This document shows, in pieces, positions 12,408-43,885 of a stretch of 50,368 nucleotides of DNA; position 1 is the stretch's first letter; each line of letters starts with the position of its first letter. This stretch comes from Beijerinckiaceae bacterium (GTDB lineage: Bacteria; Pseudomonadota; Alphaproteobacteria; Rhizobiales; Beijerinckiaceae). The notes below the pieces were generated by a model, which saw only the letters and a program-made list of their open reading frames with translations, had not been told where the DNA came from and did no database searches. Location of the stretch: the NCBI GenBank assembly GCA_947498445.1, contig CANMLK010000003.1:1-50368 (forward strand), read 5' to 3'. A program made the position numbers and the translations under genes.

Positions 12408-12694
12408 GACCGTCTCCTCCAAGCTTATATTGCTGATCTAAACGTCAGCTCGGGAATTCAATCAGAGGTAACTAAGGTGGGCAAGGCATATTCGCCGCAA
12501 TTGGGCGGCAGTCGTAGCTTTCAACATTTCGGTGTATAGTTATGTAAATAACAACAGTATTTCTACTATGGAAATATCACGGTATCTGACAGGCTGATCG
12601 GTGGTGGGCAAAGTCAAAAGCCGCATAACGCGCCGGGAGAGCCGCTGGTCCTTATGTTATCGAAGATAAAAGGCTGGCGCGGAGACCGCCGCGA
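12408..12694. other. AT-rich gene-free stretch upstream of the PQQ dehydrogenase
   Basis: This 287-base gap separates the end of the fur/mur gene from the start of the dehydrogenase, both on the reverse strand. I see no coding region or RNA. It is AT-rich from about 12510 to 12590, in contrast to its neighbours, and presumably carries the dehydrogenase promoter. Confidence 0.5.
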
Positions 12695-28456: not shown

Positions 28457-28471
28457 GACGCCATTTTCCAA

Positions 28472-28987
28472 TCAGGCGCGAAGCGCTGTCAGCATTGCAG
28501 TGATGTAATCGGCGTCATGCGCGATGACGAGCATGCGCGCGTATGGCCGGAGATGCCCCATGGAGGCGGAGACGTCGGCGTCGCTCGCGCCTTCGCCCGG
28601 CACGACAATAGCGAGAAGAGTCTTGTGATGAGCTGTGCACGCGTCTGCGATGACAGAGACAGAACGGGCGTCTTCGCCTGCCGCCGAGACGACCACAATA
28701 AAGTCTGAAGAGGCAACTTCGCTTACCAGATCGAGCGCACGGCCGGCGAGATCATTGAGCCATGCGCTGAGGCCCGCATCGGTCTTGCCGGGCTCGGCGT
28801 CCGACGCGAAGGACAACGCGCGGAAAAACGTCGCGCCTTTCCATTCCTTCTTCGCCAGTTCATCGATCATCTCGGCGCTTGGAGGATCAAGCGCGATCAC
28901 CTTCACGGCGCGCTGCCTGGAGTTGGGATATTGCACCCGGAAGCGAGATTCCTGCGCCGTGGTGACTCGAGCGGATTCGCTTTGCAT
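28472..28987 (-). CDS. Conserved-looking protein of unknown function
   Basis: A 171-residue soluble protein without signal peptide or membrane helix. It alternates predicted strands and helices, with a hydrophobic strand SSDFIVVVSAAGEDARSVSVIADAC followed by KTLLAIVVPG, which suggests an alpha/beta Rossmann-like fold. It is reminiscent of the middle of FtsZ-type GTPases but has no G-box, so I do not assign that family. GGAGGCG lies 7 bases before the start at 28987. It is immediately upstream of the two half-permease genes, so a role with that transporter is likely by position. Confidence 0.6.
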   Translation of the reverse strand: MQSESARVTTAQESRFRVQYPNSRQRAVKVIALDPPSAEMIDELAKKEWKGATFFRALSFASDAEPGKTDAGLSAWLNDLAGRALDLVSEVASSDFIVVVSAAGEDARSVSVIADACTAHHKTLLAIVVPGEGASDADVSASMGHLRPYARMLVIAHDADYITAMLTALRA

Positions 28988-29046
28988 CTCATCGCCTCCA
29001 GAAGCTGCTGGCGGCCGACCTACGCGGGCGCCAAACTACAAAGCAA

Positions 29047-29070
29047 GCGGCGGGCCGTTAAGCCCGCCGC
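29047..29070 (-). terminator. Intrinsic terminator after the Rieske oxygenase gene
   Basis: GCGGCGGGC and GCCCGCCGC form a perfect 9-bp stem with a 6-base loop. On the reverse strand it is followed by the T-rich CTTGCTTTGTAGTTT, right after the oxygenase stop codon at 29080. Confidence 0.75.
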
Positions 29071-29079
29071 ATGTCGACA

Positions 29080-30366: not shown

Positions 30367-30505
30367 GAACATTCTCCCCTTGCGCCAGTCCCCTGCTCTC
30401 TAGCGCAGAGTGAGTGGCAATTCACTTCCGGGCGCTTGAGCCCGGACCATTTGTCTTGATCATTGACCGGAAGCCTGCGTCTTGCTATCCACCGCCCGGT
30501 TCCTG

Positions 30506-30528
30506 TATGCGGAACGCCGTTCCGCATA
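30506..30528. promoter_or_regulatory. Perfect palindrome, candidate IclR operator
   Basis: TATGCGGAAC (30506-30515) and GTTCCGCATA (30519-30528) are perfect 10-bp arms around GCC. The site lies midway between the divergent oxygenase and ferredoxin starts. IclR-family regulators of aromatic pathways bind palindromes of this type, and an IclR gene lies in the adjacent operon. Confidence 0.75.
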
Positions 30529-30585
30529 AGATCATACCTAGCGTTTATCACCGGTCCGCAAAGGGCGTCAATTAGAAGAGGGAGA

Positions 30586-30903
30586 ATGTCGGTGTCCGCG
30601 CAGAAGATTGAGTTGTGCAAGACCTCTGACGTGGCGGAAGGATCCGCCATCAAGGTAGAAACCGGAGACCTCAGCCTCGCCGTGTTTAATCTCAATGGCG
30701 CCTTCTACGTCATGGACGACACGTGCAGTCACGGTCCGGGCTCTTTGTCGGAAGGCCCCATCTGCGGCGATGTCGTGGAATGCGATTTTCACAACGGCGC
30801 CTTCAACATCAAGACAGGCGAAATCGTCGAGCCGCCCTGCATGATTCCGCAAAAAACCTACAAGGTGGCGGTTGAGAGCGAGACGGTGTTCATAGAGGTC
30901 TGA
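30586..30903 (+). CDS. Rieske-type ferredoxin
   Basis: A 105-residue soluble Rieske ferredoxin. Ligands are Cys47 and His49 (DDTCSHGPGSL) and Cys66 and His69 (VVECDFHNGAFN), both in the arrangement of biphenyl/naphthalene-dioxygenase ferredoxins. It should carry electrons from the reductase encoded downstream to the divergent oxygenase. Phthalate dioxygenase systems normally lack such a separate ferredoxin, so the present one would be a three-component system. GAGGGAGA precedes the start at 30586; GTG at 30592 is an alternative. Confidence 0.92.
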   Translation: MSVSAQKIELCKTSDVAEGSAIKVETGDLSLAVFNLNGAFYVMDDTCSHGPGSLSEGPICGDVVECDFHNGAFNIKTGEIVEPPCMIPQKTYKVAVESETVFIEV

Positions 30904-31034
30904 CAACGGTGGCGACGCGCGCAGGTACCCATTCTGACGCCCAAAGGGCCGCGCCCATGCGCGATAACGAGCGAGAATGCGCGTCATCAGCCAGCGTCGC
31001 TCCAGCCAAGTGATCAGATGCAGGGAGGGGGCGC

Positions 31035-31904
31035 ATGCGTCGAGAGATGAAGACCGCCAAGGCGATAGGTGGCGGCCCCGCGCGCGCCGCTGCGTCTGCG
31101 CCTGTCGCATCTGCACCCGGAGCCTCAAAATCAAAGTCGCAACGGCTGTCATCGGTTACGACATCCGTGCGGCTTTTGAAATCCTTCAGCGAGGGCGAAG
31201 CGGAGATTGGCGTCACCACGCTGTCTAAGCGCCTGGGCGTCGCAAAAAGCACCGTGTATCGGCTGGCGTCCACACTTGTGTCCGAAGGCATGCTCGAACA
31301 GAACCGCGAGAACGACAAATATCGCCTCGGGCTAGCGCTGTTTGGCCTCGGCGCTCTTGTGCGCCAGCGCATGAACGTGTCGACGGAGGCGCGTCCGCAC
31401 ATCTTCGCCCTGCGCGAAGCGACCAACGAAACGGTGCATCTGGCGGTGCCTGAAGGTGGCCAGATCATCTATGTTTACGATCTGGAAAGCACGCAGGCGA
31501 TCCGCCAGCGCGCCAACCTTGGCGAGCGCAAGCCTGCGTTCTGCTCGGCGGAAGGGCGCGCGATGCTCGCCTTTGCGGCGCCCGGCGCAGTCGACGCCAT
31601 CATCGCCGCCGGATTGCAGCCGCGCACGCCTTTTACCGACATCAATCCAAAACATCTGAAAGCTGCTCTGGAGGACGTGCGCCAAAAAGGCTATGCACGC
31701 GAGGACGAGCAATGTGAAATCGGCATGCGTTCGCTTGCCGCTCCCATCCGCGACGCCGAAGGGCGCGTGGTGGCGGCGGTGGGAGTTGCAGGTCCGACGC
31801 AGAGGCTGTCGGAAGACGTCCTTGCGCGCTTTGCGCCACTTGTCGTGAACACGGCGCATCTCATCTCCGCGCGGCTGGGCTATCGCTCGGTCGCCGGGTT
31901 CTGA
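31035..31904 (+). CDS. IclR-family transcriptional regulator
   Basis: A 289-residue regulator. An Ala/Ser-rich N-terminal tail of about 38 residues precedes the winged helix (TTSVRLLKSFSEGEAEIGVTTLSKRLGVAKSTVYRLASTLVSEGML). The effector domain has KYRLGLALFGLG, NETVHLAVPEGGQIIYVYDLES, KPAFCSAEGRAMLAF and DEQCEIGMRSLAAPIRD, all diagnostic for IclR. These proteins control aromatic degradation and respond to pathway intermediates. It sits inside the operon it probably controls, between the ferredoxin and the reductase; the palindrome at 30506-30528 is the likely target. Confidence 0.93.
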   Translation: MRREMKTAKAIGGGPARAAASAPVASAPGASKSKSQRLSSVTTSVRLLKSFSEGEAEIGVTTLSKRLGVAKSTVYRLASTLVSEGMLEQNRENDKYRLGLALFGLGALVRQRMNVSTEARPHIFALREATNETVHLAVPEGGQIIYVYDLESTQAIRQRANLGERKPAFCSAEGRAMLAFAAPGAVDAIIAAGLQPRTPFTDINPKHLKAALEDVRQKGYAREDEQCEIGMRSLAAPIRDAEGRVVAAVGVAGPTQRLSEDVLARFAPLVVNTAHLISARLGYRSVAGF

Positions 31905-31927
31905 AACGAACAACAACGGCTGGACAC

Positions 31928-32938
31928 ATGGCGAAGATCACCATCCCTGCGGCGAACATTGAATTCGATTGCACGAACGACACCATCATGCGCGCAGCCA
32001 CGCGCATCGGGCTCGGCTTTCCCTATGAGTGCAACGTCGGCGAATGCGGCAATTGCCGCTTCGAGCTGATTGAGGGCGAAGTGTCATACCTGCGCGCAAA
32101 TCCGCCGGGCGTGACCGAGCGCGATGTGCAGCGCAAACGCTATCTGGGTTGCCAAGCCCTGCCCCAGGGCGATTGCACGATAAAGGTGTCGCTGCGCGAT
32201 CACTACAAAAGCAAGTTTCTGCCGAAGAAAACAACCGGCGAACTGATCGAGGCGTTCGATGTGACGCACGACATTCGCGAATTCCGTTTCCGCCTGTCGG
32301 AGAACGCGAAGTTCATCGCCGGTCAGTACGGCCTGATCACCGCGCCCCGCGTTGAAGGCGCGCGCGCCTATTCGATGTGCAACACGGGTGAAGACGGCGC
32401 CGAGTGGCATTTCCAGATTCGCCGCGTGCCCAACGGCGCCGCGACGACATCGCTGTTCGACAATCTGAAAGTTGGCGACAAGGTCGGCCTCGACGGCGCC
32501 TACGGCATGGCGTATCTGCGCGAAGACGCGCCGCGCGACATCCTGTGTCTTGCGGGCGGCTCGGGCCTTTCGCCGATGGTCGCGATTTCGCGCGCGGCTG
32601 CAAAAAGCCCGGCGCTGAAAGATCGCAACATCCACTTCATCTACGGCGGGCGCACGCCGCGTGATGTGTGCGGCGAGCAATTTCTGAAAGAGCTCGAAGG
32701 ATACGGCACGCGCATCCACTATATCGGCGCCATTTCGATGCCCGACGATCCTTCTTCAGCGGGCTGGACCGGCAAGGTCGGTTTCGTGCACGACATCGCC
32801 GAGCAGGTCTTTGGCGAGAAGCTGGGCGGGATGGAAGTTTACTTCGCCGGCCCGCCGCTGATGTCGCAAGCTGTGATGAAGACGCTCATCAAGTCGAAAG
32901 TACCTGCTGCGCAGATGCATTTCGACCAGTTCTATTGA
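31928..32938 (+). CDS. Oxygenase reductase: N-terminal [2Fe-2S] ferredoxin plus FAD/NAD domains
   Basis: A 336-residue electron-transfer flavoprotein. The plant-type ferredoxin ligands are Cys35, Cys40, Cys43 (YECNVGECGNC) and Cys75 (YLGCQAL). FAD binding is seen in the RAYSMCN motif near residue 145, and nucleotide binding in CLAGGSGLSPMVAI and the end YFAGPPLMSQAV. This BenC/phenol-hydroxylase-reductase layout passes electrons from NAD(P)H to oxygenase or ferredoxin. It is third in the operon, 24 bases after the IclR gene. Confidence 0.93.
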   Translation: MAKITIPAANIEFDCTNDTIMRAATRIGLGFPYECNVGECGNCRFELIEGEVSYLRANPPGVTERDVQRKRYLGCQALPQGDCTIKVSLRDHYKSKFLPKKTTGELIEAFDVTHDIREFRFRLSENAKFIAGQYGLITAPRVEGARAYSMCNTGEDGAEWHFQIRRVPNGAATTSLFDNLKVGDKVGLDGAYGMAYLREDAPRDILCLAGGSGLSPMVAISRAAAKSPALKDRNIHFIYGGRTPRDVCGEQFLKELEGYGTRIHYIGAISMPDDPSSAGWTGKVGFVHDIAEQVFGEKLGGMEVYFAGPPLMSQAVMKTLIKSKVPAAQMHFDQFY

Positions 32939-32942
32939 GAGG

Positions 32943-32966
32943 AGGCGCGCGCTCGCGCGTCTTTTT
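32943..32966 (+). terminator. Possible terminator or attenuator hairpin within the operon
   Basis: A GC-only stem (GGCGCGC with GCGCGTC-type complement, one mismatch) is followed by CTTTTTCC. It lies directly after the reductase stop and before the decarboxylase-like gene and could lower expression of the latter. Confidence 0.4.
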
Positions 32967-33005
32967 CCTTCGACAAACATTTCAGAAAACGCCCAGGGAA
33001 GAACC

Positions 33006-33992
33006 ATGTCCAAATTGAAGCTCACGTTCGGCTGCTGGAACTACGATCGCACGCGCGCCATCCAGGACGGCTCCGTGCAGCCGGATGGCATCGACATCAA
33101 TTATCTCGACATGCCGGTGGAAGAGACGTTCTTCCGCATGGCGCGCCATCGCGAATTCGATGTGTGCGAAATGTCGTTCTCGTCCTATTGCGTATCGCTG
33201 CACAAGGACCCCAAGCCCTTCGTCGCGATCCCGGTGTTTCCGTCCAAGTTCTTTCGCCACTCCTGCGTTTACGTGAACGCAAAGTCCGGCATCAAGGAGC
33301 CAAAGGATCTCATCGGCAAGAAGATCGGCGTTCCTGAGTTTCAGATGACCTCGCCAGTGTGGATTCGCGGCATCCTGTCCGACTTCTACGGCGTGCCGGT
33401 GGACTCCTGCCAATACCTGACGGGCGGCGAGGAAGAGGCTGGCCGGCCTGAGAAAATCAAGCTCGACCTGCCCCCCAACATCAACGTCAAGGCGATCCCG
33501 GACGACAAGACGCTCTCGCAAATGCTGGCAGACGGCGAGATCGACGCGCTGCACACCGCGCGCAAGCCCTCGACCTATGACGGCGTGAACGTGACGCGCC
33601 TGTTCCCCAACTACCGCGAGATCGAACTCGACTATTATCGCAAGACGAAGATCTTCCCGATCATGCACACGGTGGCGATCCGCCGCGAGGTGTATGAGGC
33701 CAATCGCTGGATCGCGATGGCGCTGTTCAAGGCGTTCCAGCAGGCCCAGCACAAGACCTATGAAGACCTGAAAGAAACCGCGGCTCTCAAGGCCATGGTG
33801 CCGTGGCTGATGCACGACGTGGAAGAAGCGCGCGCCGAAATGGGCGAGGATTACTGGGCGTACGGCTACGAGCAGAACATGGAGACCTTCAAGGTCTTCC
33901 TGCGCTACCATCAGGAATGCGGCCTCTCAAAGCGCCTCCTGAAGCCCGAAGAGCTTTTCGCGCCCGAGACGATGGAAGCGTTCAAGATTTGA
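33006..33992 (+). CDS. 4,5-dihydroxyphthalate decarboxylase-like protein
   Basis: A 328-residue protein that starts LKLTFGCWNYDRTRAIQDG and continues EETFFRMARHREFDVCEMSFSSYCVSL, VFPSKFFRHSCVYVN, and PEFQMTSPVWIRGIL. These parts closely recall Pht5, the 4,5-dihydroxyphthalate decarboxylase of phthalate degradation, in both wording and length. The fold is that of periplasmic binding proteins, so automatic annotation may call it an ABC binding protein, but there is no signal peptide and the operon holds a Rieske oxygenase system. I infer it decarboxylates a dihydroxylated aromatic acid to a catechol-type product. AGGGAAG precedes the start. No ring-cleavage enzyme of a known class follows in this operon. 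Confidence 0.8.
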   Translation: MSKLKLTFGCWNYDRTRAIQDGSVQPDGIDINYLDMPVEETFFRMARHREFDVCEMSFSSYCVSLHKDPKPFVAIPVFPSKFFRHSCVYVNAKSGIKEPKDLIGKKIGVPEFQMTSPVWIRGILSDFYGVPVDSCQYLTGGEEEAGRPEKIKLDLPPNINVKAIPDDKTLSQMLADGEIDALHTARKPSTYDGVNVTRLFPNYREIELDYYRKTKIFPIMHTVAIRREVYEANRWIAMALFKAFQQAQHKTYEDLKETAALKAMVPWLMHDVEEARAEMGEDYWAYGYEQNMETFKVFLRYHQECGLSKRLLKPEELFAPETMEAFKI

Positions 33993-34020
33993 TGGCGAAG
34001 ATTTTCTTCACCTTGACGCT

Positions 34021-34100
34021 GTCATGCGTGGGCTTGACCCGCGCATCCAGGAACATGCTTGCGGTTTGAGCTGGAAGGCCGGATCAAGTCCGGCCATGAC
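34021..34100. repeat. Composite inverted palindromic repeat
   Basis: The segment begins GTCATGCGTGGGCTTGACCC...CCAG and ends CTGG...GATCAAGTCCGGCCATGAC, the outer parts being mirror images (GTCAT/ATGAC, CCAG/CTGG). Each half is itself a small palindrome of the GGGCTTGACCC or GGATCAAGTCC type seen between genes in many Alphaproteobacteria. It fills the gap between the convergent decarboxylase and His-tail genes. Confidence 0.7.
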
Positions 34101-34133
34101 GCAAAGCTGATTGCGCGACGCGACAGAGCAACA

Positions 34134-34541
34134 TCAGTGCGAATGCCCGAAGTGGCCCGTTGACTCATCATGGTCATGCCCGTGATCGGGCTCCATCGAA
34201 TCCGCTTCCGCATAGCCGTGCATCATGGCTTCCATGACGCGGCGCAGCGGATCGTCGCCCAGCGACAGATGACCCGCCATCAGCCCCGCCAATCGCGCGA
34301 AGACCAGCGGTTGCATGGACAGCATGTCGTAGCTGCGGGAGGGATCGACGCCCTCGCAATCGCGCGTTGCGCGGGCGAGCGCGTCAGCGAACAATTGATC
34401 GATGACGTTGACGACCGCGTCATCGGAAGACGCTGCGGTCTTTTCGCGTTTGCGGAGGATCATCTGGGCATGATGCAGAAAGCGGCTGTAATGAGCTTCC
34501 TGCAGGCCTGTCGGGCCTTCGTCATCCAGTTCGCCGCACAT
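34134..34541 (-). CDS. Small protein with histidine-rich C-terminal tail, unknown function
   Basis: A 135-residue protein of unknown family. The body is helical (LQEAHYSRFLHHAQMILRKREKTA, DAVVNVIDQLFADALARATRDC, PLVFARLAGLMAGHLSLGDDPLRRVMEAMMHGY) and the tail DHGHDHDESTGHFGHSH carries six His and several Asp/Glu, suited to binding divalent metal such as Ni, Co, Zn or Fe. The start at 34541 follows AGGAGCAGG. It is the last gene of the operon with two cupins and a His-rich EutA-like ATPase, which makes metal storage or delivery for that system plausible. No function is proven. Confidence 0.72.
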   Translation of the reverse strand: MCGELDDEGPTGLQEAHYSRFLHHAQMILRKREKTAASSDDAVVNVIDQLFADALARATRDCEGVDPSRSYDMLSMQPLVFARLAGLMAGHLSLGDDPLRRVMEAMMHGYAEADSMEPDHGHDHDESTGHFGHSH

Positions 34542-34660
34542 GTGTCCTGCTCCTGTAAAAGCAGCGCACGGCAAAGCCCAAGGCGCCGCTCTTGAAACGA
34601 ATGAGCGCGTCGGAGGGAACCGACGCGCCATTATTCAGATCAATTGAACGACAAAGGCGA

Positions 34661-35215
34661 TCAAAAGCCTTCGGCGTTTTCCAGTTGCTCGAACCAGTCG
34701 AAGCCCATGGACTTCACGATGCGGCTTGTGCACGAAATGATGCGGGCCTGCTTGTTGGGGTCCGCGTTGAAGTGCTTATGGGCGCAATAGGGCGGAATGT
34801 AGATGAAATCGCCTGCGGACCACTCGTACTTCTTGGGCTCGCTCTCCCACTCGAACTCCATCACGTCCTTGCAGTCGAACTTCACGTCCCAGTGCAGGTC
34901 GTAGCCGGAGCCTTCGACAACATAGACCACTTCTTCCGAGAGATGGCGGTGCTTGCCTGAGGCTTTGCCGGGCGCAAGGAACTGCATGTAGATGTCGAGG
35001 CAGTATTCCTTGGTGTCCATCTCCTCGTGGATGATGTGCTTGATGAGGCCGTGGGGCGAACGCTCCAGCGGCATCTCGTTCCACTTCACCACGCCGATCT
35101 TGCCGTCATAATCCTTGCGGAACTTCTCCGACGCTTTCAGAGCCTCGGTGTAGAAGTTGACTTCCGGCGCGTGGCCCTCTGCGCGTTCGCGCTCGCGGGG
35201 GTCGACAATGGCCAT
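34661..35215 (-). CDS. Single-domain cupin protein
   Basis: A 184-residue cupin. The metal motif is SGKHRHLSEEVVYVVEGSGYDLHWD: two His and a Glu in the H-x-H-x3-E-x6-G arrangement. The second motif is IYIPPYCAHKHFN, with the fourth ligand His. All four metal ligands of the cupin fold are therefore present, unlike in the two longer cupin paralogues nearby. AGGAGAG is 5 bases before the start at 35215. It is 69 bases downstream of the longer cupin in the same operon. It may be a metal-dependent dioxygenase or isomerase; which reaction is not visible. Confidence 0.85.
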   Translation of the reverse strand: MAIVDPRERERAEGHAPEVNFYTEALKASEKFRKDYDGKIGVVKWNEMPLERSPHGLIKHIIHEEMDTKEYCLDIYMQFLAPGKASGKHRHLSEEVVYVVEGSGYDLHWDVKFDCKDVMEFEWESEPKKYEWSAGDFIYIPPYCAHKHFNADPNKQARIISCTSRIVKSMGFDWFEQLENAEGF

Positions 35216-35284
35216 AACACTCTCCTGTAGCGGACAGGCGCGCACCTCGCGGCGCGCGCCGTTGTATCCTTACGTTAACGCGCC

Positions 35285-36403
35285 TTACGCGACCTTGGGG
35301 GGCAGCGACTCGAGTTCCTGCTTGTAGGCCTCGTCCATCTTCGGCTCGACGCCGTTCTTGGCGAGCTCGTCGGAGAAGAGATCGCGCACGAGCTTGGACT
35401 CGTCAGCGTAATCGATCTGGTCGCCGCCGATGCGACGGCTGATCCACGCCTTGGGCACGCCCTGCCCGTTACGGATCGAGACAGCCTCATGCTTGAACGC
35501 GAGGTAGCGGGCCGGTGTGGTGCCGGTGTTAAAATGCTGATGGAACCACATGTTCGGCGGCACGATCATGGTGCCGACTTCCCATTCGTAGCGCTTGGGC
35601 TCATCGCCTTCCGGCCACATCAGGGAATAGCCTTCGCCCGACAGGATGATGACGTGCGCGCCCGGACCATGGCAATGGCCCTTCTTGTAGGTGCCGATCG
35701 GGAACTGCGAGATGTGCGAGTTCATCGAGCCCTTGGCCATGTTGAAGCGGATGTGACCGCCGCCAGCGCCGCGCTCTTTGGCGGAAATCAGCGGCAGGTT
35801 GACCGCGTCCGGCACGAAGTTGGTTTCGAGCAAGAGGCCCTTCTGCTCACCCTTATTGGAGAAGTAGTCGGGCTCGCCGGCAAAGCGGCTCTTGAAGTCG
35901 TGCGGCGTGTTGAAGATGAAGTCGATGTCTTCGTAGAGGTTGATCACCGGGGGAGCGTTCGTCACCGAGCAGAAACGCGCGGGCTCGGAGCCCGAACCGT
36001 TGAAGTGCTGGTGCCAGGCGTTCAGCGGAATCGCGAACAGCGCGCCGGCCTTCCACTCGAAGGTGATCTTCTGGCCAGCGTCGTTCCACACTGCGGTGGA
36101 GCCGCGGCCGTCGAGGACGAGGATCATTTCCTCGAAGAGCTGGCGCTGGGGCTCAAGCTTCTTGCCCGGAGCGATTTCGCAGACGTAGCAGTCGTTCGAC
36201 GTGCGCGAGGCTTCGTGGTTGATATAGATGCCCTTGCCGCCGCGGCGGGCCCAGGGCTTCAGCTCAACAGTGCGCAGGTTCTGGATGTAGTGAGCCGAGA
36301 TGATGTCGAGGCCTTCGTCGCGCACCCAGCGCAGGTAGGGCGTGTCCTTCTCGGTGGCAAACTTCTTTGCAAGGTCGTCCGAAACAATTGCGTCTTTCGC
36401 CAT
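35285..36403 (-). CDS. Bicupin protein paired with EutA-like ATPase (reverse-strand copy)
   Basis: A 372-residue protein with two cupin domains, distantly like gentisate dioxygenases. Domain 1 (about residues 60-150) has LEPQRQLFEEMILVLDGRG, where the usual H-x-H is Q-R-Q, and IPLNAWHQHFNG. Domain 2 (about 205-320) has KGHCHGPGAHVIILSGEGYSLMW, which retains H-x-H, and MWFHQHFNTG. One site is therefore degenerate. AAGGAGG lies 5-6 bases before the start at 36403. It is 115 bases downstream of the EutA-like gene. A paralogue (40068-41297) is likewise paired with an EutA-like gene, so the association seems functional. Activity unknown; an aromatic or organic-acid dioxygenase is one option. Confidence 0.85.
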   Translation of the reverse strand: MAKDAIVSDDLAKKFATEKDTPYLRWVRDEGLDIISAHYIQNLRTVELKPWARRGGKGIYINHEASRTSNDCYVCEIAPGKKLEPQRQLFEEMILVLDGRGSTAVWNDAGQKITFEWKAGALFAIPLNAWHQHFNGSGSEPARFCSVTNAPPVINLYEDIDFIFNTPHDFKSRFAGEPDYFSNKGEQKGLLLETNFVPDAVNLPLISAKERGAGGGHIRFNMAKGSMNSHISQFPIGTYKKGHCHGPGAHVIILSGEGYSLMWPEGDEPKRYEWEVGTMIVPPNMWFHQHFNTGTTPARYLAFKHEAVSIRNGQGVPKAWISRRIGGDQIDYADESKLVRDLFSDELAKNGVEPKMDEAYKQELESLPPKVA

Positions 36404-36518
36404 ATTTTCCTCCTTGGACATCGGGAGACGGAGCACGCAATAACGGCACCGTCCGATCAGATTTAGTCCTATAGATCAGATTGCAACGCCCTGATCAATG
36501 CGGCGCTCAGCTTGTGGT

Positions 36519-38285
36519 TCAGGCTGTCTTGCCTGCGGGCGCTGCATGGCTGTGGCCATGGGCGTGATCATGTCCATCATGATGGTGATGATGGCCATGC
36601 GTATGTGCGCCGGGACCGTCTTCCTGCTCGCGATGGTGAATAATCTCCTTCGAGCGCGGGCCGCGGGGATCTTCGTTGAACACCAGCGACTTGATGGTGA
36701 CAGGCACAGTGTACGAAGGAATTCGCACTTTGCCGAGATCGATGTAGTCAAAATCCATCAGCATCACGCCGTCGATCACCAAAATCTCGCTCTCGATGCC
36801 GCAATCCTCACGGATGACGGCGCCAAGCGTCTGGGCGACGTCGCCGTCGAGCATGACGTAGATCGGGTTTCCAGCCGCGATCTTGTCGGCGAGCCCTTCC
36901 ACGATGCCCTTCGCGAAGGCGAAGATGCGCTCATAGGCGGGCGGGCCGGTCCAGCGCAGGGCCAGGGCGATCTCGGTGTCGGCGCTCTCCAGCTCAAAGG
37001 CCTTGCGATGGCTGATGATGGCTTTCGCCAGCGCCGCCGGATCGACATCCTCGCCAGCCTCGAAGGGCGGGGAGAGGACCTGGAGATTGCGCTTGGGCAG
37101 CAGGATGCCGGGGTTGGAGATGTAGCTCGTGTTGCCCGACAGCTGGACTGAATATTCCGAGGCGCCGAGCGCGGTGGCGCGGATGCATTCACGCGCCGGC
37201 AGCAGCGGCCAAGCGAACTTGCCAGCATCAACCTTGCGGCGGATTGCAGCGCCCAGTCGCTTGCCCATGTCGTTGAAATCGCGCTGCTCACGATCGTAGA
37301 CGTATTCGGCGACGCCGCCTGAGAACATCATCCCGCCGAGATCGCCGAAATCGAGAATCGGATCGGTCAGATAGAGATGCGCGACGTCGTGGGGAATCGG
37401 CCGCTCGGTCAGCGCGGCGACAAGCGTGTCCGCCATCACGTCCGCGACTTTATCGAGATCGTCGGGATTGATTGTGTCGCCCAGATTCCAGTCGAAACCC
37501 GCGCGGCGGGCGTGGGTGCGCCCGGCAGGGTCAAGACGCGCGATCTTGCCGCCTTCGGTCACCTGCAAGCGGCCGCCGATGTGCACGGCGGCTGTCACCA
37601 GCACCTTGCCGCCTTCGATCAGGCCCAGTTTTGTCGTGCCGCCGCCGATGTCGACGTTGAGGACGCGCTTGCCAAGATCGAGGGAAGCCTGCGCTGCGCC
37701 CGAACCGTAGGCGGCGAGCATGGATTCCATGTGGTGGCCAGCGGTGGCGCAGACGAATTCGCCGCCCGCTTCCGACAGCATGGCGGAGATCGCCTGCGCG
37801 TTTTCACGCCGCAAAGCCTCGCCGGTGAGAATCACGGCGCCAGTGTCGACGTCGTCCTTCTTGAGGCCCGCGCCCTCATAGGCTTCGAGCACGATGTCGC
37901 GCAGCTTGTCCTCGTCAATGCGGGTGACGCTGGCGTAGGGCGTGAGCGAAACGGGGGAAAGATAAAGCTGCTCGCGCGAGACGACGTAATAACGGCTCGT
38001 CAGGTCTTCGGAGAGGCGGCGCAGGTGAATGCGCGAAAAGATGACCTGCGTACCGGAGGAGCCGATGTCGATACCGACGCTGGTCAGATGCACATTGTCC
38101 TGCATCCACAGCGGGTTTTCCTCAATGGGCCCGTCGTACTGGAACTGGTCGTGCTCGTGGTCGGCCTCTTCGTCATGTTCATGGTGGAAGTATTGGCCGA
38201 CGTTGTGTTCCTGCAACGTGTGGTCTGCGGCTGCCTTGATCGCATCCTCGACGGTCCTGCCGGATTTCTCGTCCTCGTTCGCCAT
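36519..38285 (-). CDS. EutA-like ASKHA ATPase with histidine-rich ends
   Basis: A 588-residue protein resembling EutA, the reactivating factor of ethanolamine ammonia-lyase. ASKHA nucleotide motifs are TSVGIDIGSSGTQVIFSR (phosphate 1, near 68-85), VLNVDIGGGTTKLGLIEGG (phosphate 2) and GGMMFSGGVAEYVY (adenosine). The end has EILVIDGVMLMDFDYIDLGKV and PVTIKSLVF. The N-terminus (HHEHDEEADHEHD) and the C-terminal about 30 residues (HTHGHHHHHDGHDHAHGHSH) are His-rich, like nickel or zinc metallochaperones such as HypB or UreE. No eutB/eutC or other cobalamin enzyme is nearby. GGGGAGA precedes the start. It heads the cupin operon after a hydrolase gene. I infer an ATP-driven activator of the cupins, possibly in metal delivery. 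Confidence 0.83.
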   Translation of the reverse strand: MANEDEKSGRTVEDAIKAAADHTLQEHNVGQYFHHEHDEEADHEHDQFQYDGPIEENPLWMQDNVHLTSVGIDIGSSGTQVIFSRIHLRRLSEDLTSRYYVVSREQLYLSPVSLTPYASVTRIDEDKLRDIVLEAYEGAGLKKDDVDTGAVILTGEALRRENAQAISAMLSEAGGEFVCATAGHHMESMLAAYGSGAAQASLDLGKRVLNVDIGGGTTKLGLIEGGKVLVTAAVHIGGRLQVTEGGKIARLDPAGRTHARRAGFDWNLGDTINPDDLDKVADVMADTLVAALTERPIPHDVAHLYLTDPILDFGDLGGMMFSGGVAEYVYDREQRDFNDMGKRLGAAIRRKVDAGKFAWPLLPARECIRATALGASEYSVQLSGNTSYISNPGILLPKRNLQVLSPPFEAGEDVDPAALAKAIISHRKAFELESADTEIALALRWTGPPAYERIFAFAKGIVEGLADKIAAGNPIYVMLDGDVAQTLGAVIREDCGIESEILVIDGVMLMDFDYIDLGKVRIPSYTVPVTIKSLVFNEDPRGPRSKEIIHHREQEDGPGAHTHGHHHHHDGHDHAHGHSHAAPAGKTA

Positions 38286-38409
38286 CTATCTCCCCGCGCG
38301 CAAGGGTCTTCCGCTTCCTCCAAACGCATGAGGCGCGTCTCGCGGTCTTGTCGCTATAGGGGTCTGAGTCGCGCGAACGCGTCCGGCTGTCAACCCCGGG
38401 ACGGACCCT

Positions 38410-39861
38410 TCAAGAGCGCCGGCGCAGCCAGTCTGCGATGTAATCAAGTGCGCGGCCGGACGTGTCGCCGAAGCGGCGGCCAGACCCGCCTGAGCAGCTC
38501 TGGCATGGATTGAGCCAGTGCATGGCCCCTTCCACGCCCACCAGGTCTTTATCCTGCGACGCGGCGGCGTCGAGGATCATTTCCGCAGGCCGGACGCCGA
38601 AGTGGGCGGTGTTGGCGACGACCAGCAGTGGGTCGGTCACACCGGCGAGGTTGGAGATCGCGCTTGTCGTGGAGGACGCCCAGATCACCCCGGTTACGTC
38701 GTCTGCGGTCACGTCGTAGTCCGCCGTCGTGTTGATGGCGTGGCCTGCAAGAAAACCGCGAGCCGAGAAGGCGACGGCGGTGCGGTAGCTGTTGGACTCG
38801 CGTGGGTTGCCGGTGGGAAGGGAAATGGATTCCAGCACGCGGGTCGGCTTCGATCCATCGGCGGCCAGCATCTTGTGCGCGCGTTTAGTGCGCATAAGCA
38901 AACCGGCATCGACCTGCCAGATGGGTGTGGTGAGTACGCCGGCCACAAACAGGGGCATGTCATCGTTGAAAGCGTCGCGCTCGCGTGTCGCCACGGCGGA
39001 GACGAGCTTGCGCGCCTCGCCACTCAGTCTGGCGCCGCGCTCGGCCTGCGCGGTGAAAAACGCCTTGCGGAAAGCCGCGGGATATCGCCCCGCGTTCTGG
39101 CCCGGATCGAACCCGTTGCGCGGGTCATACATATCGAGTCCCGGATATCGCTGGGTCGGCGCGCTTTCGACTGCGATGGCCGGGTCCAGCCCGGAGAGGG
39201 TCGCAAAAGCCTGCCCGAGATCGGGATCGACCAACACGAGTGCGGCGGCGGGCACGAGACCCGAAAGGCGAGCCCCGTCACAAGGGGCGATCTTCTCGGC
39301 CCCCTGACAGGTGGCGGCGCCGTTCCTGGCGACGCTCTGGTAAAAGGCCGCAAGCGCTCCGCCCTCACCGTGGCCAGCCAGGATGACGGTTTGCACACCG
39401 CGTTCCTGACGGACCCGTGCGAGGGCCGCGCTGATGGTCTGAGCCTGGGAATCGTAGCCGCCAAATCGAAATGGCCGGTTGGTGGTCGGCGGGTCTGCGC
39501 AGAGGACGACAAATCCACGCTCCGCCAGGCCGCTGCACAGCGGATTGCCGAGGGAACTGGCGAACGGATGGACGAGAACGACCGCCGTTTTCGCCGCGCC
39601 GTTTCTGTCCTGACCCCGGTCCTGCGGCGCCCACAACAAGCCCTGCCCGAGATGGCCCAGCGAAACGTAGAGCGAGGGGGCAGACACGCGGGCCGGCGCG
39701 GCCGGAGCTGCGGGCGCGACGGGAGCTGCGGGCGTCGAGGCGTCAGGTTGCCCCTGCGCCATCGCGGCGGCGCTCGCAAAGCCGAGCAGCAAGGCTGCCA
39801 GTTGTCCCGCAAGGATCAAGCGATCATTCCTCCGCCATCCTTCGCCACCTGCGGCGAACAT
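38410..39861 (-). CDS. Exported alpha/beta-hydrolase-like protein lacking the nucleophile Ser
   Basis: A protein of about 483 residues with a signal peptide (RLILAGQLAALLLGFASAAAMAQ) and an Ala/Pro-rich linker. An alpha/beta-hydrolase core follows: TAVVLVHPFASSLGNPLCSGLAERGFVVLCADP, then the nucleophile elbow ILAGHGEGGALAAF. In the pattern G-x-S-x-G the Ser is Gly here, so classical hydrolysis is unlikely unless another residue serves. Late motifs are VTDPLLVVANTAHFGVRPAEMI and EGAMHWLNPCQSC with a Cys pair. The start at 39861 lies 6 bases after GAGAGG; ATG 39867 is also possible. It is upstream of the EutA-like gene on the same strand with a 124-base gap. Confidence 0.75.
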   Translation of the reverse strand: MFAAGGEGWRRNDRLILAGQLAALLLGFASAAAMAQGQPDASTPAAPVAPAAPAAPARVSAPSLYVSLGHLGQGLLWAPQDRGQDRNGAAKTAVVLVHPFASSLGNPLCSGLAERGFVVLCADPPTTNRPFRFGGYDSQAQTISAALARVRQERGVQTVILAGHGEGGALAAFYQSVARNGAATCQGAEKIAPCDGARLSGLVPAAALVLVDPDLGQAFATLSGLDPAIAVESAPTQRYPGLDMYDPRNGFDPGQNAGRYPAAFRKAFFTAQAERGARLSGEARKLVSAVATRERDAFNDDMPLFVAGVLTTPIWQVDAGLLMRTKRAHKMLAADGSKPTRVLESISLPTGNPRESNSYRTAVAFSARGFLAGHAINTTADYDVTADDVTGVIWASSTTSAISNLAGVTDPLLVVANTAHFGVRPAEMILDAAASQDKDLVGVEGAMHWLNPCQSCSGGSGRRFGDTSGRALDYIADWLRRRS

Positions 39862-40015
39862 GGCCATCCTCTCGACGCGGGAGCGCGGGCGCAAGGGTTC
39901 ACGCACAGACCTTGCCGCGCGAACATGGCGGCGGTTTGGCAAGTGTGACAGAAATCGCCAGTCCAAGTTGACACGCTCCGGCGTTTGCCTGATTTACCAA
40001 GAGGAGAGCGCCCCG

Positions 40016-40078
40016 ATGCGGCGCGACGCGATGGCGCCGCAGGCGTCCGCCAACACGGAGGATTACCATGCCACATGA
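40016..40078 (+). CDS. Possible 20-residue leader peptide before the cupin gene
   Basis: ATG at 40016 follows AGAGGAG by 9 bases and encodes MRRDAMAPQASANTEDYHAT, stopping at 40078, 11 bases inside the cupin gene (start 40068). The reading frame differs from that of the cupin. A translated leader that couples or controls cupin translation is possible; it could also be chance. Confidence 0.3.
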   Translation: MRRDAMAPQASANTEDYHAT

Positions 40079-41297
40079 TGCGAAGGACGGCACCCACTGG
40101 CACGAGCCGGCCGGAACGAAGAAAGCGGGCTTTGGCGAATTCAAGAAACAGCCGACCCCCTATGACGCCTTCATGGAGTCCGAAGGCGTGCCGGTTTTCC
40201 GTGACATTGGCATTTCCTGCGTCGCGAACCTGCCGCTCCACGATTGGAAGCGCAAGGGCGGCAGAGGCCATTACATCCAGCTCTACGGAACGGAAACGAA
40301 GTGGGGCTGCTACGTGGTCGAAGTGCCGCCGGGCGGCGCGCTTCATCCCGAAAAGCACATGTTCGAGGAAATCTACCTCGTCGTCGAAGGCCGCGGCACG
40401 ACTGAAGTCTGGCAGGAAGGCGACACCAAGAAGCACGTCTTCGAATGGCAGAAGGGCTCGATGTTCTCGATCCCGATGAACGCCTGGTTCCGCATCGTCA
40501 ACGCCACGTCGGGCGGCGCGCTCCTGCTCGCCGGCAACACGGCGCCGAACGTGATGAACATGATCAACAACGTTGAAGGCGTGTTCAACAACCCGTTCGT
40601 GTTCCGCGACCGCTTCTCGGGCGCCGACGATTTCTTCAAGCCCAAGGACGACATCGAGCCAGATCCGGTGCGCGGTCTGGCCATGCGCAAGACGAACTTC
40701 ATTCCTGACGTCGTCGATTGCGAACTTCCGCTCGATAACCGCCGCTCGGTCGGCTATCGCCGCGTCGAGCCGTTCATGACCAATAACCAGTTCTATTACT
40801 GGATCGCGCAGCATGAGAACGGCCGCTATTCCAAGGCTCACGCGCACACGTCCGCAGCCGTGCTCGTTTGCCTCAAGGGCAAGGGCTACACCTATTCGTG
40901 GCCGGAGCGTTGCGGCCCGACGCCGTGGAAAGACGGCTTCGGCCATGAGGTTCGCCGCGTTGATTACGGCCAGTTCGGGCTCGTGACGGCGGCGCCGGGC
41001 GGCGCGCGTTGGTATCATCAGCACTTCTCGGTCTCCAAGGACGACTTCCGCCTGTCCGCGTGGTTCGGACCGCATAATCCGGGCCGCGATCCGGGCGCGC
41101 CGGGCGAGAAGCACACCGACTACACCGCCATCGATCTCGACAAGGGTGGCACGGCTATCCCCTACTTCATGGAAGACCCCTATCTTCGCAAGGAGTTCGA
41201 GGAAACGCTGAAGCGCAACAACGTGCCGTGCCGCATGGATGGCGCATGGTACGTGCCGCCGAACGCGAACGACGAAAAGCGCGACACGGTGGTCTGA
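40068..41297 (+). CDS. Bicupin protein paired with EutA-like ATPase (forward-strand copy)
   Basis: A 409-residue paralogue of the bicupin at 35285-36403, with the same domain plan and shared segments (GxCYVxEVxPG..., MFEEIYLVVEGRGTTEVW, FEWQKGSMFSIPMNAW). Domain 1 retains one His and the Glu of motif 1 (HPEKHMFEE), but its motif 2 reads NAWFRIVN, without His. Domain 2 has SKAHAHTSAAVLVCLKGKGYTYSW (H-x-H) and RWYHQHFS. GGAGG is 6 bases before the start at 40068. A strong terminator follows the stop, then the second EutA-like gene, so cupin should be made in excess over ATPase. Enzyme activity is not established. Confidence 0.85.
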   Translation: MPHDAKDGTHWHEPAGTKKAGFGEFKKQPTPYDAFMESEGVPVFRDIGISCVANLPLHDWKRKGGRGHYIQLYGTETKWGCYVVEVPPGGALHPEKHMFEEIYLVVEGRGTTEVWQEGDTKKHVFEWQKGSMFSIPMNAWFRIVNATSGGALLLAGNTAPNVMNMINNVEGVFNNPFVFRDRFSGADDFFKPKDDIEPDPVRGLAMRKTNFIPDVVDCELPLDNRRSVGYRRVEPFMTNNQFYYWIAQHENGRYSKAHAHTSAAVLVCLKGKGYTYSWPERCGPTPWKDGFGHEVRRVDYGQFGLVTAAPGGARWYHQHFSVSKDDFRLSAWFGPHNPGRDPGAPGEKHTDYTAIDLDKGGTAIPYFMEDPYLRKEFEETLKRNNVPCRMDGAWYVPPNANDEKRDTVV

Positions 41298-41313
41298 TCA
41301 ATCCGATAGCAAC

Positions 41314-41350
41314 GCCCTCCCCGCGCAACGGGGAGGGCCCTTTCTTTTTT
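41314..41350 (+). terminator. Intrinsic terminator between cupin and EutA-like genes
   Basis: GCCCTCCCCG (41314-41323) pairs with CGGGGAGGGC (41329-41338) over a 5-base loop, followed by CCTTTCTTTTTTC. This is a strong intrinsic terminator on the forward strand. Partial readthrough would lower the ATPase dose relative to the cupin. Confidence 0.88.
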
Positions 41351-41381
41351 CAGGGATGAAGCCGACAAGGATGAAGTCGAG

Positions 41382-42905
41382 ATGAGCGACGACGAAGAAT
41401 TTCAGGGTGGACGCGTTTTCTTTTCAAACGTGCGGCGCAGCCTCGAGGAAGAAGACGAAATCCGTCTCGTCAGCGTCGGCGTCGACATCGGCTCGTCGAC
41501 ATCGCATCTCGTGTTCTCACGCCTGCTGCTTGAGCGTCTCGACAATCGCTATATCGTTACGGAACGTGAAGTGTTTCACGAATCCGACGTGCTGCTGACG
41601 CCCTACGCCGACGACATGACTATCGACGCCAAGAAGCTTGGCGCGTTCATCGACCTTCAATATGAGGCCGCGGGCGTTGATCCCTCTGCGATCGACACTG
41701 GAGCGCTGATTCTCACGGGCGTCGCCGTGCGCCGCGCCAACGCGCGCTCGATTGGCGAACTCTTCGCCGCGCAGGCGGGCAAGTTCGTGTCCGTTTCGGC
41801 CGGTGACGGCCTTGAGACGACGCTAGCCGCCTTTGGCTCGGGCGCCGCAGCCCGCTCCATTCGCGACAACAAGCGCGTGATGAATATCGACATCGGCGGC
41901 GGCACATCGAAGATCGCGGTCTGCGAAGCGGGCGAAGTCATCGACATGACTGCCGTGGACGTGGGCGCGCGAATCGTTTCGTTCGACGCCGACGGCACCG
42001 TGACGCGCGTTGAGGAAGCGGGCCGTCGCTTCGCCAAGGAAGTTGGCTTTGAACTCGTGCTCGGCGGCAAGATCAGCGAAGACCAGCGCACCGCGATGGT
42101 CGAGTGCATGGCTGATCGATTGTTCGAGGCCATGACGCAGTCGGCGCTGAAGCCCGAAACCGCCAGCCTGCTCCGCCTCAATCCGTTGAAGAACGACCGC
42201 AAGCCTGAAGTCATTCAATTCTCGGGCGGCGTGTCGGAATACGTCTACTCCCTGCAATCAAAGGGCTTTGGCGATCTTGGTCCGCGGCTCGCGAAGGCCA
42301 TGCTGAAGCGCGTGCAGGAATGGGGCGTCACGCTCGAACAGCCCGACCAGAGCATCCGGGCCACCGTTGTCGGCGCCTCGCAATACACCGTGCAGGTCAG
42401 CGGCTCGACCATTTTCGTGGCGCCGATGGAAACATTGCCGCTGCGCAATATGCCTGTCGTCGTGCCGGATTTGCCATTGGGCAACGAAGAGCTAGACCAG
42501 AACGCCATCGCTGACGCGGTGCGGCAGGCGCTGCGCCGGCTGGATTTGCACGAAGGCGAGCAGGCGGTTGCACTCTGCTATCGCTGGGAAGGCTCAGCCA
42601 TGTTCCGGCGGCTCGACGACTTCTGCAAGGGTGTGCATGCGGGTCTGTCGAAGCAGATGGAAAATGGCCATCCGCTTGTTCTCGTCGGCGACGGGGACAT
42701 TGGCGGCCTGATCGGCATTCACGTTCGCGAGGAAGCAAAGTTCTCGAACGCGGTGGTGTCAATCGACGGCATCGAACTCAAGGAGTTTGATTTCATCGAC
42801 ATTGGCGCGCTGCTTGAGACCTCCGGCGCCGTGCCTGTCGTGATCAAGTCGCTCGTCTTCCCAACCACCTCGGCCCTCGGTAAGGTCGAAGCGACGGTCA
42901 CGTAA
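41382..42905 (+). CDS. EutA-like ASKHA ATPase (without His-rich ends)
   Basis: A 507-residue paralogue of the ATPase at 36519-38285. ASKHA motifs are VSVGVDIGSSTSHLVFSR (about 30-47), VMNIDIGGGTSKIAVCEAG and VIQFSGGVSEYVY. The region FEAMTQSALKPETASLLRLNPL and the end VVSIDGIELKEFDFIDIGALLETSGAVPVVIKSLVF match EutA proteins. The His-rich head and tail of the paralogue are absent. AAGGA lies about 10 bases before the start. It is downstream of the bicupin and its terminator. No ethanolamine ammonia-lyase is in the window. It probably forms a functional pair with the cupin upstream. Confidence 0.85.
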   Translation: MSDDEEFQGGRVFFSNVRRSLEEEDEIRLVSVGVDIGSSTSHLVFSRLLLERLDNRYIVTEREVFHESDVLLTPYADDMTIDAKKLGAFIDLQYEAAGVDPSAIDTGALILTGVAVRRANARSIGELFAAQAGKFVSVSAGDGLETTLAAFGSGAAARSIRDNKRVMNIDIGGGTSKIAVCEAGEVIDMTAVDVGARIVSFDADGTVTRVEEAGRRFAKEVGFELVLGGKISEDQRTAMVECMADRLFEAMTQSALKPETASLLRLNPLKNDRKPEVIQFSGGVSEYVYSLQSKGFGDLGPRLAKAMLKRVQEWGVTLEQPDQSIRATVVGASQYTVQVSGSTIFVAPMETLPLRNMPVVVPDLPLGNEELDQNAIADAVRQALRRLDLHEGEQAVALCYRWEGSAMFRRLDDFCKGVHAGLSKQMENGHPLVLVGDGDIGGLIGIHVREEAKFSNAVVSIDGIELKEFDFIDIGALLETSGAVPVVIKSLVFPTTSALGKVEATVT

Positions 42906-42916
42906 CGGGGACGTGC

Positions 42917-43885
42917 ATGGGACTTGACGATCACGAGCGGCATCTTCCTGCACTGTTTGCGCCGATTGAGCCGTTCGCGTCCGGCTATCTCGACGTCGGC
43001 GATCATCACCGCATCTGGTGGGAGACCGCGGGCAACCCGGAAGGGAAGCCCGCGTTATTCCTGCACGGTGGACCAGGCGGCGGCTTTCATGCCGACCATC
43101 GCCGACTGTTCGATCCCGACCATTACATGATCGTCCTGTTCGACCAGCGGGGCTGTGGGCGTTCGTTGCCGCACGGCGAGCTGCAGGCGAACACGACGCA
43201 GCATCTTGTCCACGACATAGAGCTTTTGCGCGAAAGGCTCGGGATCAAAAGCTGGCTCCTGCTGGGTGGATCGTGGGGCGCGACGTTGGCGCTCGCTTAC
43301 GCGCAGGCGCATGTGCAACACGTTACGGGTCTGATCCTGCGCGGCGTCTTCACGGGGCGCCAGTGCGAGGTCGACTGGCTCTATAAGTTCGGCGCCTCGC
43401 AAATCTTCCCGGACGCCTGGGCGCGCTTCATCGCGCCTGTAGCTCCACACGAACGAGATGATCTTGTGGGCGCGTATTATCGGCGGCTGACTGGCGCGGA
43501 CATCGCGCTGCGCATGGACGTGGCGCGCACATGGTGCGCATGGGAGGCCAAACTGCTGACTCTGCGCACACGCGCTCCCGCCACCGGGTCAGCAAGCCCG
43601 GGCGAAATTGCGCTCGCGCGACTGGAAACGCATTACTTCGTCAATTACTCGTTCCTTGATGAAGGCCAGATCATCGCCAACATGCACAAGCTTGCGGGGA
43701 CGCCTGGCATCATCGTGCAGGGTCGCTACGACATGGTGACGCCCGTGCGCAGCGCATTCGATCTGTCCCTCGCATGGCCGGACGGCGATCTGCGCATCAT
43801 CCCGTCAGCAGGGCATGCGACGAGCGAACCGGGCATCCTCGCCGCGCTCATTTCAGCAACCAACGACATGCGAACGCTGGGCTGA
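42917..43885 (+). CDS. pip: Prolyl aminopeptidase
   Basis: A cytosolic alpha/beta hydrolase (S33) that removes N-terminal proline from peptides. The oxyanion motif HGGPGGG (residues 50-56), FDQRGCGRS and the nucleophile motif GGSWGAT (Ser119) are diagnostic. The catalytic Asp is in QGRYDMVTP and the His in PSAGHA. Length 322 is normal. It starts 11 bases after the EutA-like gene on the same strand, so it is likely co-transcribed, though no functional link is evident. Confidence 0.94.
   Translation: MGLDDHERHLPALFAPIEPFASGYLDVGDHHRIWWETAGNPEGKPALFLHGGPGGGFHADHRRLFDPDHYMIVLFDQRGCGRSLPHGELQANTTQHLVHDIELLRERLGIKSWLLLGGSWGATLALAYAQAHVQHVTGLILRGVFTGRQCEVDWLYKFGASQIFPDAWARFIAPVAPHERDDLVGAYYRRLTGADIALRMDVARTWCAWEAKLLTLRTRAPATGSASPGEIALARLETHYFVNYSFLDEGQIIANMHKLAGTPGIIVQGRYDMVTPVRSAFDLSLAWPDGDLRIIPSAGHATSEPGILAALISATNDMRTLG

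Follow-up and report, generated by a model that had tools for sequence, protein, structure and literature searches.

HypB and UreE/UreG are G3E GTPases or small chaperones for nickel. Passages of PMC5821096 describe EutA as a factor that removes damaged cofactor from ethanolamine ammonia-lyase in an ATP-dependent manner, and PMC4416304 reports that the four-histidine (4-His) site of quercetinase supports nickel or cobalt. Here we describe a locus from a Beijerinckiaceae bacterium in which two ATPases of the EutA family, eutA1 and eutA2, are each encoded next to a two-domain cupin (bicupin), bicupA and bicupB, respectively. The analysed stretch of DNA, referred to as the window, comprises positions 1 to 50,368 of contig CANMLK010000003.1 (assembly GCA_947498445.1). 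The system looks like an EutA-family ATPase with a new client and a seemingly undescribed way of switching on cupins. No description of EutA together with cupins was found in the open-access literature searched, which leaves out most subscription papers and preprints; a genome annotation update, PMC4334477, contains the words euta, nickel and cupin. In some of the literature, eutA may denote an unrelated gene for ectoine utilisation.

On the minus strand, eutA1 (36519-38285) is followed by bicupA (35285-36436) after a gap of 82 bp, by the single-domain cupin gene cupS (34661-35245) after a further 39 bp and, 29 bp beyond cupS, by a gene for a small protein with a His-rich C-terminus and no Pfam match (34134-34631). 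On the plus strand, bicupB (40068-41297) is followed 84 bp later by eutA2 (41382-42905). Together with a minus-strand open reading frame (ORF) upstream of eutA1, these are the seven genes of 34134-42905; all are open without a single internal stop, and their places, strands and order agree with the preliminary description of this DNA. Comparison with relatives indicates that the true start of bicupA is probably an internal ATG (MAKDAIV). The EutA-like and cupin assignments made earlier from the sequence also hold. Both ATPases match the Pfam family EutA (PF06277, cut-off 27) over nearly the full profile, eutA1 with 379.5 bits (positions 3-475 of 475) and eutA2 with 396.4 bits (3-474), and the three cupins match Cupin_2. 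Apart from EutA, Pfam recognised only weak ASKHA relatives in the ATPases and no G3E-type GTPase. The NCBIfam EutA equivalog scores, 317.9 and 330.9 bits, lie far under the cut-off of 598 for the best model. Paralogy, proposed previously for both partners, is borne out by 32% identity between the bicupins (E 4e-58) and 39% between the ATPases (E 1e-106).

Coupling of the two families was assessed at the genome level in 713 genomes, taken as three samples drawn regardless of gene neighbours, each centred on one genome with the pair. Among 397 genomes of the window's order, bicupins were present in seven and EutA in eight, with the eighth EutA adjoining EutB. The order around a Pusillimonas locus (L023; loci and genomes are referred to by L and G numbers) contributed 150 genomes, with bicupins in two and EutA in the same two plus two weaker ones beside EutB. 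Within the phylum around the Chloroflexota locus L058 (166 genomes), bicupins were found in 12 genomes and EutA in 13, 11 of them shared; the two extra EutA adjoin EutB, and a single genome shows a weak bicupin match (167 bits) in the absence of EutA. The Chloroflexota EutB check covered 12 of the 13 EutA genomes, the thirteenth, G1007, having two EutA fragments that adjoin bicupins by coordinates. In total, 20 genomes carry both families, one a weak bicupin only, none a cupin-linked EutA only and 692 neither (Fisher p 6e-38, or 3e-33 when the three centre genomes are left out). These p values serve as a guide, as the genomes are related to one another and scoring was limited to the top candidates of each. 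All five further EutA proteins in the 713 genomes are encoded beside EutB, in genomes without bicupin matches. A phylum-wide sample for Pfam EutA yielded the family in 6 of 398 genomes, one of them that of the window. This was too few for a statistical test, and the sample was used as a source of controls: in the five other genomes, EutA lies beside EutB in five of five and beside a cupin in none. A chance neighbourhood was rejected on the basis of the genome-level coupling. Since these ATPases are coupled to bicupins and EutB-side EutA stands apart, this branch of the family appears to have changed its client. Bicupins can be numerous, with 31 matches in G817 against five ATPase matches (9 of 18 ATPase candidates scored); that ATPases are outnumbered in bicupin-rich genomes is as expected of a helper.

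The same association is visible in individual neighbourhoods. Eighty loci, the best 80 of at least 469 confirmed loci and the nearest relatives of eutA2, were analysed as named loci; two plasmid loci, L091 and L092, stand outside the 80. A simple frame-scoring gene caller both missed and overcalled genes, and cupin counts were therefore taken from six-frame searches with slightly differing thresholds. The named loci contain 97 EutA ORFs, 94 of at least 440 amino acids. A cupin lies within 2.5 kb of 71 of these 94 and EutB or EutC of none, a figure that by itself leans towards the branch because the 80 loci are the nearest eutA2 relatives. The window's own genome encodes five full-length ATPases above the Pfam EutA cut-off, plus a sixth weak match below it; all five adjoin a cupin, one of which is a bicupin cut by a contig end. 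ATPases are present in 36 of 37 genomes of the window's genus, its own included, mostly with three to five matches each, fragments counted. Four layouts recur in a chosen set of loci from the genus. Two are the pairs of the window, bicupB-eutA2 and bicupA-eutA1, the latter with its His-armed ATPase. In the third, EutA and a bicupin lie close to a different Rieske oxygenase, and in the fourth EutA is accompanied by a pair of single cupins; in L007, genes for an NAD-linked formate dehydrogenase come after this fourth layout. The preliminary description would have been refuted had homologues in other genomes shown no cupin neighbour more often than chance, or had a cobalamin enzyme nearby been the true client, and neither came true: EutA homologues do adjoin cupins, and 20 of the 21 genomes with either partner have both, so that cupins as clients of the ATPases are well supported by association. 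Its further suggestion, that the ATPase acts as an activase or metallation factor, receives indirect support only, from the His-rich stretches, the nickel transporters near some pairs and the conserved His sites.

The ATPases fall into two types according to their nucleotide-site motif, GIDIGSSGTQ in eutA1 (type II) and GVDIGSSTSH in eutA2 (type I, without a His-rich tail). Typing was by motif, and 18 of 146 EutA ORFs were untypable. The protein encoded by eutA1 has a His-rich N-terminal stretch plus a C-terminal tail with 14 His. All 23 distinct type II ATPases have at least five His within the 75 residues before the motif, a stretch that may take in frame upstream of the true start, vs 3 of 102 of type I, and a C-terminal tail with at least ten His is present in 16 of the 23 vs 0 of 102; L011 and L134, one locus fetched twice, were counted once in these totals. 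A structural model of eutA1 matches ASKHA folds, including the 2-hydroxyglutaryl-CoA dehydratase activator (1hux) and an N-acetylmannosamine kinase, and its ends are of low confidence, as for disordered tails. A search of solved structures with EutA likewise returned only ASKHA relatives. The predicted ASKHA fold fits a helper and is no proof of one. In a FastTree phylogeny of 141 EutA proteins, the six EutB-linked rows form one clade with support 98, to which all other rows stand opposite, tentatively suggesting that cupin-linked ATPases are a branch separate from EutB-linked EutA.

Bicupins were sorted into A and B types by their identity to bicupA and bicupB, and their metal ligands, placed by motif position, are predicted in the C-terminal cupin domain. 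BicupA shows a 4-His site (H254, H256, H261 and H299, kept in 22, 22, 20 and 22 of 22 A-type bicupins), and bicupB a 3-His site (H258, H260 and H317, kept in 52, 51 and 55 of 55 B-type bicupins) with Ala at the usual Glu ligand position in 53 of the 55. The usual His pair is not kept in the N-terminal cupin domain. An AlphaFold2 model of bicupB (predicted local distance difference test, pLDDT, 89) contains two strand-rich regions, and its best fold matches are two-domain cupins; among solved structures these are MncA and oxalate decarboxylase, with template modelling (TM) scores of just about 0.44, so the match does not name a reaction. A single-sequence search of solved structures with the bicupin gave no useful hit. 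Profile kinship of the bicupin is weak: gentisate 1,2-dioxygenase (3bu7) is matched at E 3e-5, alongside an auxin-binding protein and a designed protein, and cupS matches the same gentisate 1,2-dioxygenase weakly (E 1.6e-6). The NCBIfam 5-aminosalicylate dioxygenase model MabB matched 20 of 40 members and was the only NCBIfam model to match among the 40; the window proteins reach at most 34 bits against its cut-off of 650. These similarities weakly suggest a distant relationship of the cupins to ring-cleaving dioxygenases of the gentisate type. An apparent bicupin fusion in L044 was rejected, because the 983 amino acid call is a reading frame drawn too long, in which the bicupin occupies the end. 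Bicupins have expanded in several genomes of 1.7 to 3.3 Mb, with 31, 24, 15, 16 and 14 matches in G817, G818, G820, G787 and G813 (the genomes behind L058, L066, L068, L018 and L021).

Genes for nickel transporters are found close to some of the pairs. Seven of the 80 named loci contain NicO or HupE/UreJ families (L032, L036 and L048; L040, L041, L049 and L051), compared with 0.58 of 80 expected from gene density, a density that was hand-counted on 26 of the 80 named genomes, the seven positives included, with loci searched using few query proteins. Both plasmid loci also hold nickel-transporter families. The transporter gene overlaps the ATPase gene or sits at most 70 bp away in five of these nine loci, including L036, L041, L048 and L049. 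NikR, an annotated nickel sensor that in Phyllobacterium lies next to the transporter, adjoins the pair in L048 and in the almost identical locus L092. Because some lineages encode a nickel importer next door, we favour nickel (or cobalt) as the metal.

We hypothesize that the ATPase activates the cupin by loading or exchanging its metal, perhaps nickel, at the expense of ATP, a proposal we consider moderately probable. A branch of EutA would have left ethanolamine ammonia-lyase and would now serve cupin enzymes, which would hold a mononuclear metal via three or four His in their second cupin domain. The ATPase would bind its cupin and open it, spending ATP, and the opened cupin would then take up the right metal or release a wrong or spent one, much as EutA acts on damaged cobalamin. 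In type II systems, the ATPase's own His-rich arms may hold metal as a local store, aided by the separate His-tailed protein. We infer that the partners make contact, that ATP powers the process and that metal is exchanged, and likewise which metal is held, what kind of substrate is used and, from gene neighbours, that its ring is cleaved. A bolder version is possible and distinctly more speculative: an ASKHA-family metal insertase that would be the first ATP-driven machine to place nickel (or cobalt) into cupin dioxygenases via His arms on an EutA-type motor, with several parallel copies per genome in freshwater aromatic degraders and few ATPases for whole bicupin families in Chloroflexota.

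Three other explanations have to be weighed against an activator that loads or exchanges metal. The ATPase could rescue rather than load its client, an Fe(II) dioxygenase that is oxidised or product-blocked in turnover, opening it so that dead iron or inhibitor leaves; the His arms and nickel importers would then be side matters. XylT ferredoxin, which repairs inactivated ring-cleaving dioxygenases, is a precedent, and the 3-His site of B-type bicupins, with Ala at the Glu position in nearly all of them, fits such a client, as does the weak kinship to gentisate and 5-aminosalicylate dioxygenases. Rescue is also the closest analogy to EutA, which removes damaged cofactor according to passages of PMC5821096. 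However, it leaves unexplained the His-rich stretches on all 23 distinct type II ATPases, the His-tailed protein and the nickel transporters that adjoin the ATPase in several lineages, and we regard it as rather doubtful. Alternatively, the ATPase may be a pathway enzyme that activates or phosphorylates a small substrate which the cupin cleaves or has made. Its ASKHA fold is common to kinases, with an N-acetylmannosamine kinase among the structural matches, and co-occurrence alone would fit a two-step pathway, but it is the EutA family at full length that the profile matches, the upstream chemistry differs by locus (Rieske oxygenase, UbiD, formate dehydrogenase or, by eye, molybdenum hydroxylase-like genes), bicupins can outnumber ATPases and a kinase has no need of His-rich arms. 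A pathway enzyme seems unlikely.

Lastly, a cobalamin enzyme elsewhere in the genome could be the true client, with the cupin and the cobalt/nickel transporter as bystanders. The known client of the EutA family is a cobalamin enzyme, and NicO proteins can carry cobalt. Against this, none of the 94 named ORFs lies near EutB or EutC, the five genomes with EutB-side EutA lack bicupin matches whereas the 20 with other EutA have them, and the Phyllobacterium transporter adjoins NikR. A cobalamin client nearby was rejected on searches for EutB and EutC in the window and the named loci. Absence of eutB and eutC from the window, claimed in the preliminary description, was confirmed by tblastn with one haloarchaeal query each (zero matches), and among 36 of the 53 called window proteins Pfam recognised no cobalamin-dependent family, so the nearby cobalamin enzyme that had been named as the possible true client was not recognised in the window. 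The genome-wide check of cobalamin enzymes covered EutB and EutC, and we judge a distant cobalamin client very improbable. By analogy, the simplest account of all observations would be that an EutA branch does for cupin metal sites what EutA does for cobalamin, and on balance we lean towards it.

Several observations weigh against an activator that handles cupin metal. In the named loci, 23 of the 94 ATPase ORFs, in 19 loci, have no cupin within 2.5 kb, some being parted from their cupin by a transporter operon and some being type I ATPases that stand without a bicupin. Nine of the 94 lack any cupin in the surrounding DNA, one of them (L022) at a contig edge; the genomes of the other eight do carry bicupins, as do all 14 whole genomes searched, which lie behind 14 of these 19 loci. 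In further stretches beyond the named loci, 4 of 39 ATPase ORFs adjoin neither a cupin nor EutB. The first order sample scored the best three or four candidates per genome, so that weak homologues could be missed. In favour of the pairing, distances among EutA proteins and among bicupins correlate with r 0.89 over 64 pairs (best of 2000 permutations 0.39), but this correlation includes shared species history; a better sign is given by six loci that each hold two EutA-bicupin pairs, ATPase and bicupin alike differing between the pairs. In the tree, long branches, which can join falsely, carry three of the six EutB-linked rows. Type I ATPases are without His tails, and Fe(II) cupin dioxygenases have a 3-His site as well. 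The case for nickel is slender, as the 7 of 80 loci amount by judgement to about four lineages (P about 0.003 if each counts once). Except in L032 and L036, the transporter lies on the strand opposite the nearby ATPase, and thus not in one operon with it, or, in L091, 10 kb away. HupE is absent from all 17 searched genomes of the window's genus, and where NicO and an ATPase share a contig in these genomes, they are never less than 20 kb apart. No NiCo riboswitch was detected in the window or seven loci; the search for NiCo and cobalamin riboswitches gave none above the gathering score, and one tRNA was found in the window.

The minus-strand half of the locus is part of a larger conserved set, 27381-38285, which joins a Rieske oxygenase and its redox partners to the His-tailed protein and the type II ATPase. 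Relatives of the His-tailed protein with His-rich ends are found in L013, L036, L081, L148 and L152, and the two relatives inspected at their starts begin with MCG. A Rieske oxygenase alpha subunit with a LigXa-type C-terminal domain (29080-30372, minus strand; Rieske and LigXa_C) is followed on the same strand by c12 (28472-28987), a protein of unknown family that often adjoins a Rieske oxygenase; it has no Pfam match, and 12 other loci contain relatives, weakly so in two cases. Next to c12 are two half-size predicted permeases on the minus strand, one at 27884-28471 (ArsP_1, 42.4 bits; the cluster also contains relatives in L140, L152 and L154) and its partner at 27381-27884 (ArsP_1, 31.6 bits, just below the cut-off of 32.3). 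Encoded on the plus strand are a Rieske ferredoxin (30463-30903), an IclR-type regulator (31035-31904), an oxygenase reductase with 2Fe-2S, FAD and NAD domains (31928-32938; Fer2, FAD_binding_6 and NAD_binding_1) and a conserved protein of uncertain function (33006-33992). The latter has no Pfam match, a weak NCBIfam substrate-binding match and relatives in 11 other loci, and is presumably similar to 4,5-dihydroxyphthalate decarboxylase or a substrate-binding protein. In some other genomes the two ArsP_1-type half-permeases and the 171 amino acid c12 protein (27381-28987) likewise accompany Rieske oxygenase and His-armed EutA, and the half-permeases might carry the metal or the substrate of the His-armed system. 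In L077, Rieske oxygenase, c12, EutA and bicupin are encoded in one row on one strand.

On the other side, an alpha/beta hydrolase (42917-43885, plus strand; Abhydrolase_1, prolyl iminopeptidase-like by eye) begins 11 bp after eutA2. Its cluster spans 23 loci, the window counted, and it may act hydrolytically on the cupin product. The minus-strand ORF at 38410-39966, 124 bp upstream of eutA1, had been labelled a hydrolase, a label that is not supported: it has no Pfam match, and among the other loci compared its only relatives are in L031 (31% identity) and L037 (27%), a further match in L102 being the window itself. It was rejected as a part of the system and lies outside the conserved module. 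Far upstream, the window also contains a gene for a pyrroloquinoline quinone (PQQ)-type beta-propeller dehydrogenase (10653-12422), to which no link with the ATPase-cupin system is drawn.

In other loci the pair lies near a UbiD family gene (Pfam) or near genes resembling, by eye, those of molybdenum hydroxylases or tripartite transporters. Neighbourhoods with Rieske oxygenase, UbiD and the like point to breakdown of aromatic acids. Passages of PMC6123686 describe SAR202-group Chloroflexota with many ring-cleaving dioxygenases, gentisate type included; the words EutA and ethanolamine are absent from its main text. In L007 (9100-14830), the EutA system with two cupins is immediately followed by genes for a molybdenum formate dehydrogenase linked to NAD, and in L136, L157, L158 and L159 EutA lies by genes of the same formate dehydrogenase kind, with no cupin detected.

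How cupins, a very large enzyme superfamily, obtain the right metal in the cell is a broad question: PMC4416304 asks what governs the choice of metal, and such questions are, according to PMC11742986, hard to test. A dedicated ATPase for a cupin family, if true, would give a genetic handle on metal choice, and nickel insertion, if shown, would be a new kind of system. The finding points to a large and unassigned set of bicupins in Alphaproteobacteria and Chloroflexota, whose carriers may feed on aromatic organic matter, as passages of PMC6123686 suggest. It also bears on annotation. In the public record of the Phyllobacterium locus (L092, 15001-16521), the cupin-linked ATPase is named 'ethanolamine ammonia-lyase reactivating factor EutA', and the annotation 'ethanolamine ammonia-lyase reactivating factor' probably names the wrong client.

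Compared with known systems, the ATPases described here share with EutA a Pfam family over almost their whole length and ASKHA-type nucleotide-site motifs. They differ from it in that EutB and EutC are not encoded nearby, NCBIfam scores lie under the cut-offs, the proteins fall outside the EutB-linked clade, cupins are their neighbours and type II members carry His-rich arms. With gentisate and 5-aminosalicylate 1,2-dioxygenases, the bicupins have in common two cupin domains, a weak profile kinship and neighbourhoods suggestive of aromatic-acid breakdown, but they score far below the MabB cut-off, have no close solved structure and are accompanied by an ATPase. The nickel quercetinase QueD, likened here by description and not by comparison of sequences, likewise has a His-based mononuclear cupin site; for this enzyme, however, the abstract of PMC4416304 describes metal choice by complex stability and names no helper ATPase. 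No hydrogenase or urease genes are named in the annotated Phyllobacterium neighbourhood, the other loci not having been searched for them. Similar to HypB and UreE/UreG, the proposed system would combine a nucleotide hydrolase or chaperone with a His-rich metal-holding stretch, whereas the ATPase found here is an ASKHA protein of the EutA family.

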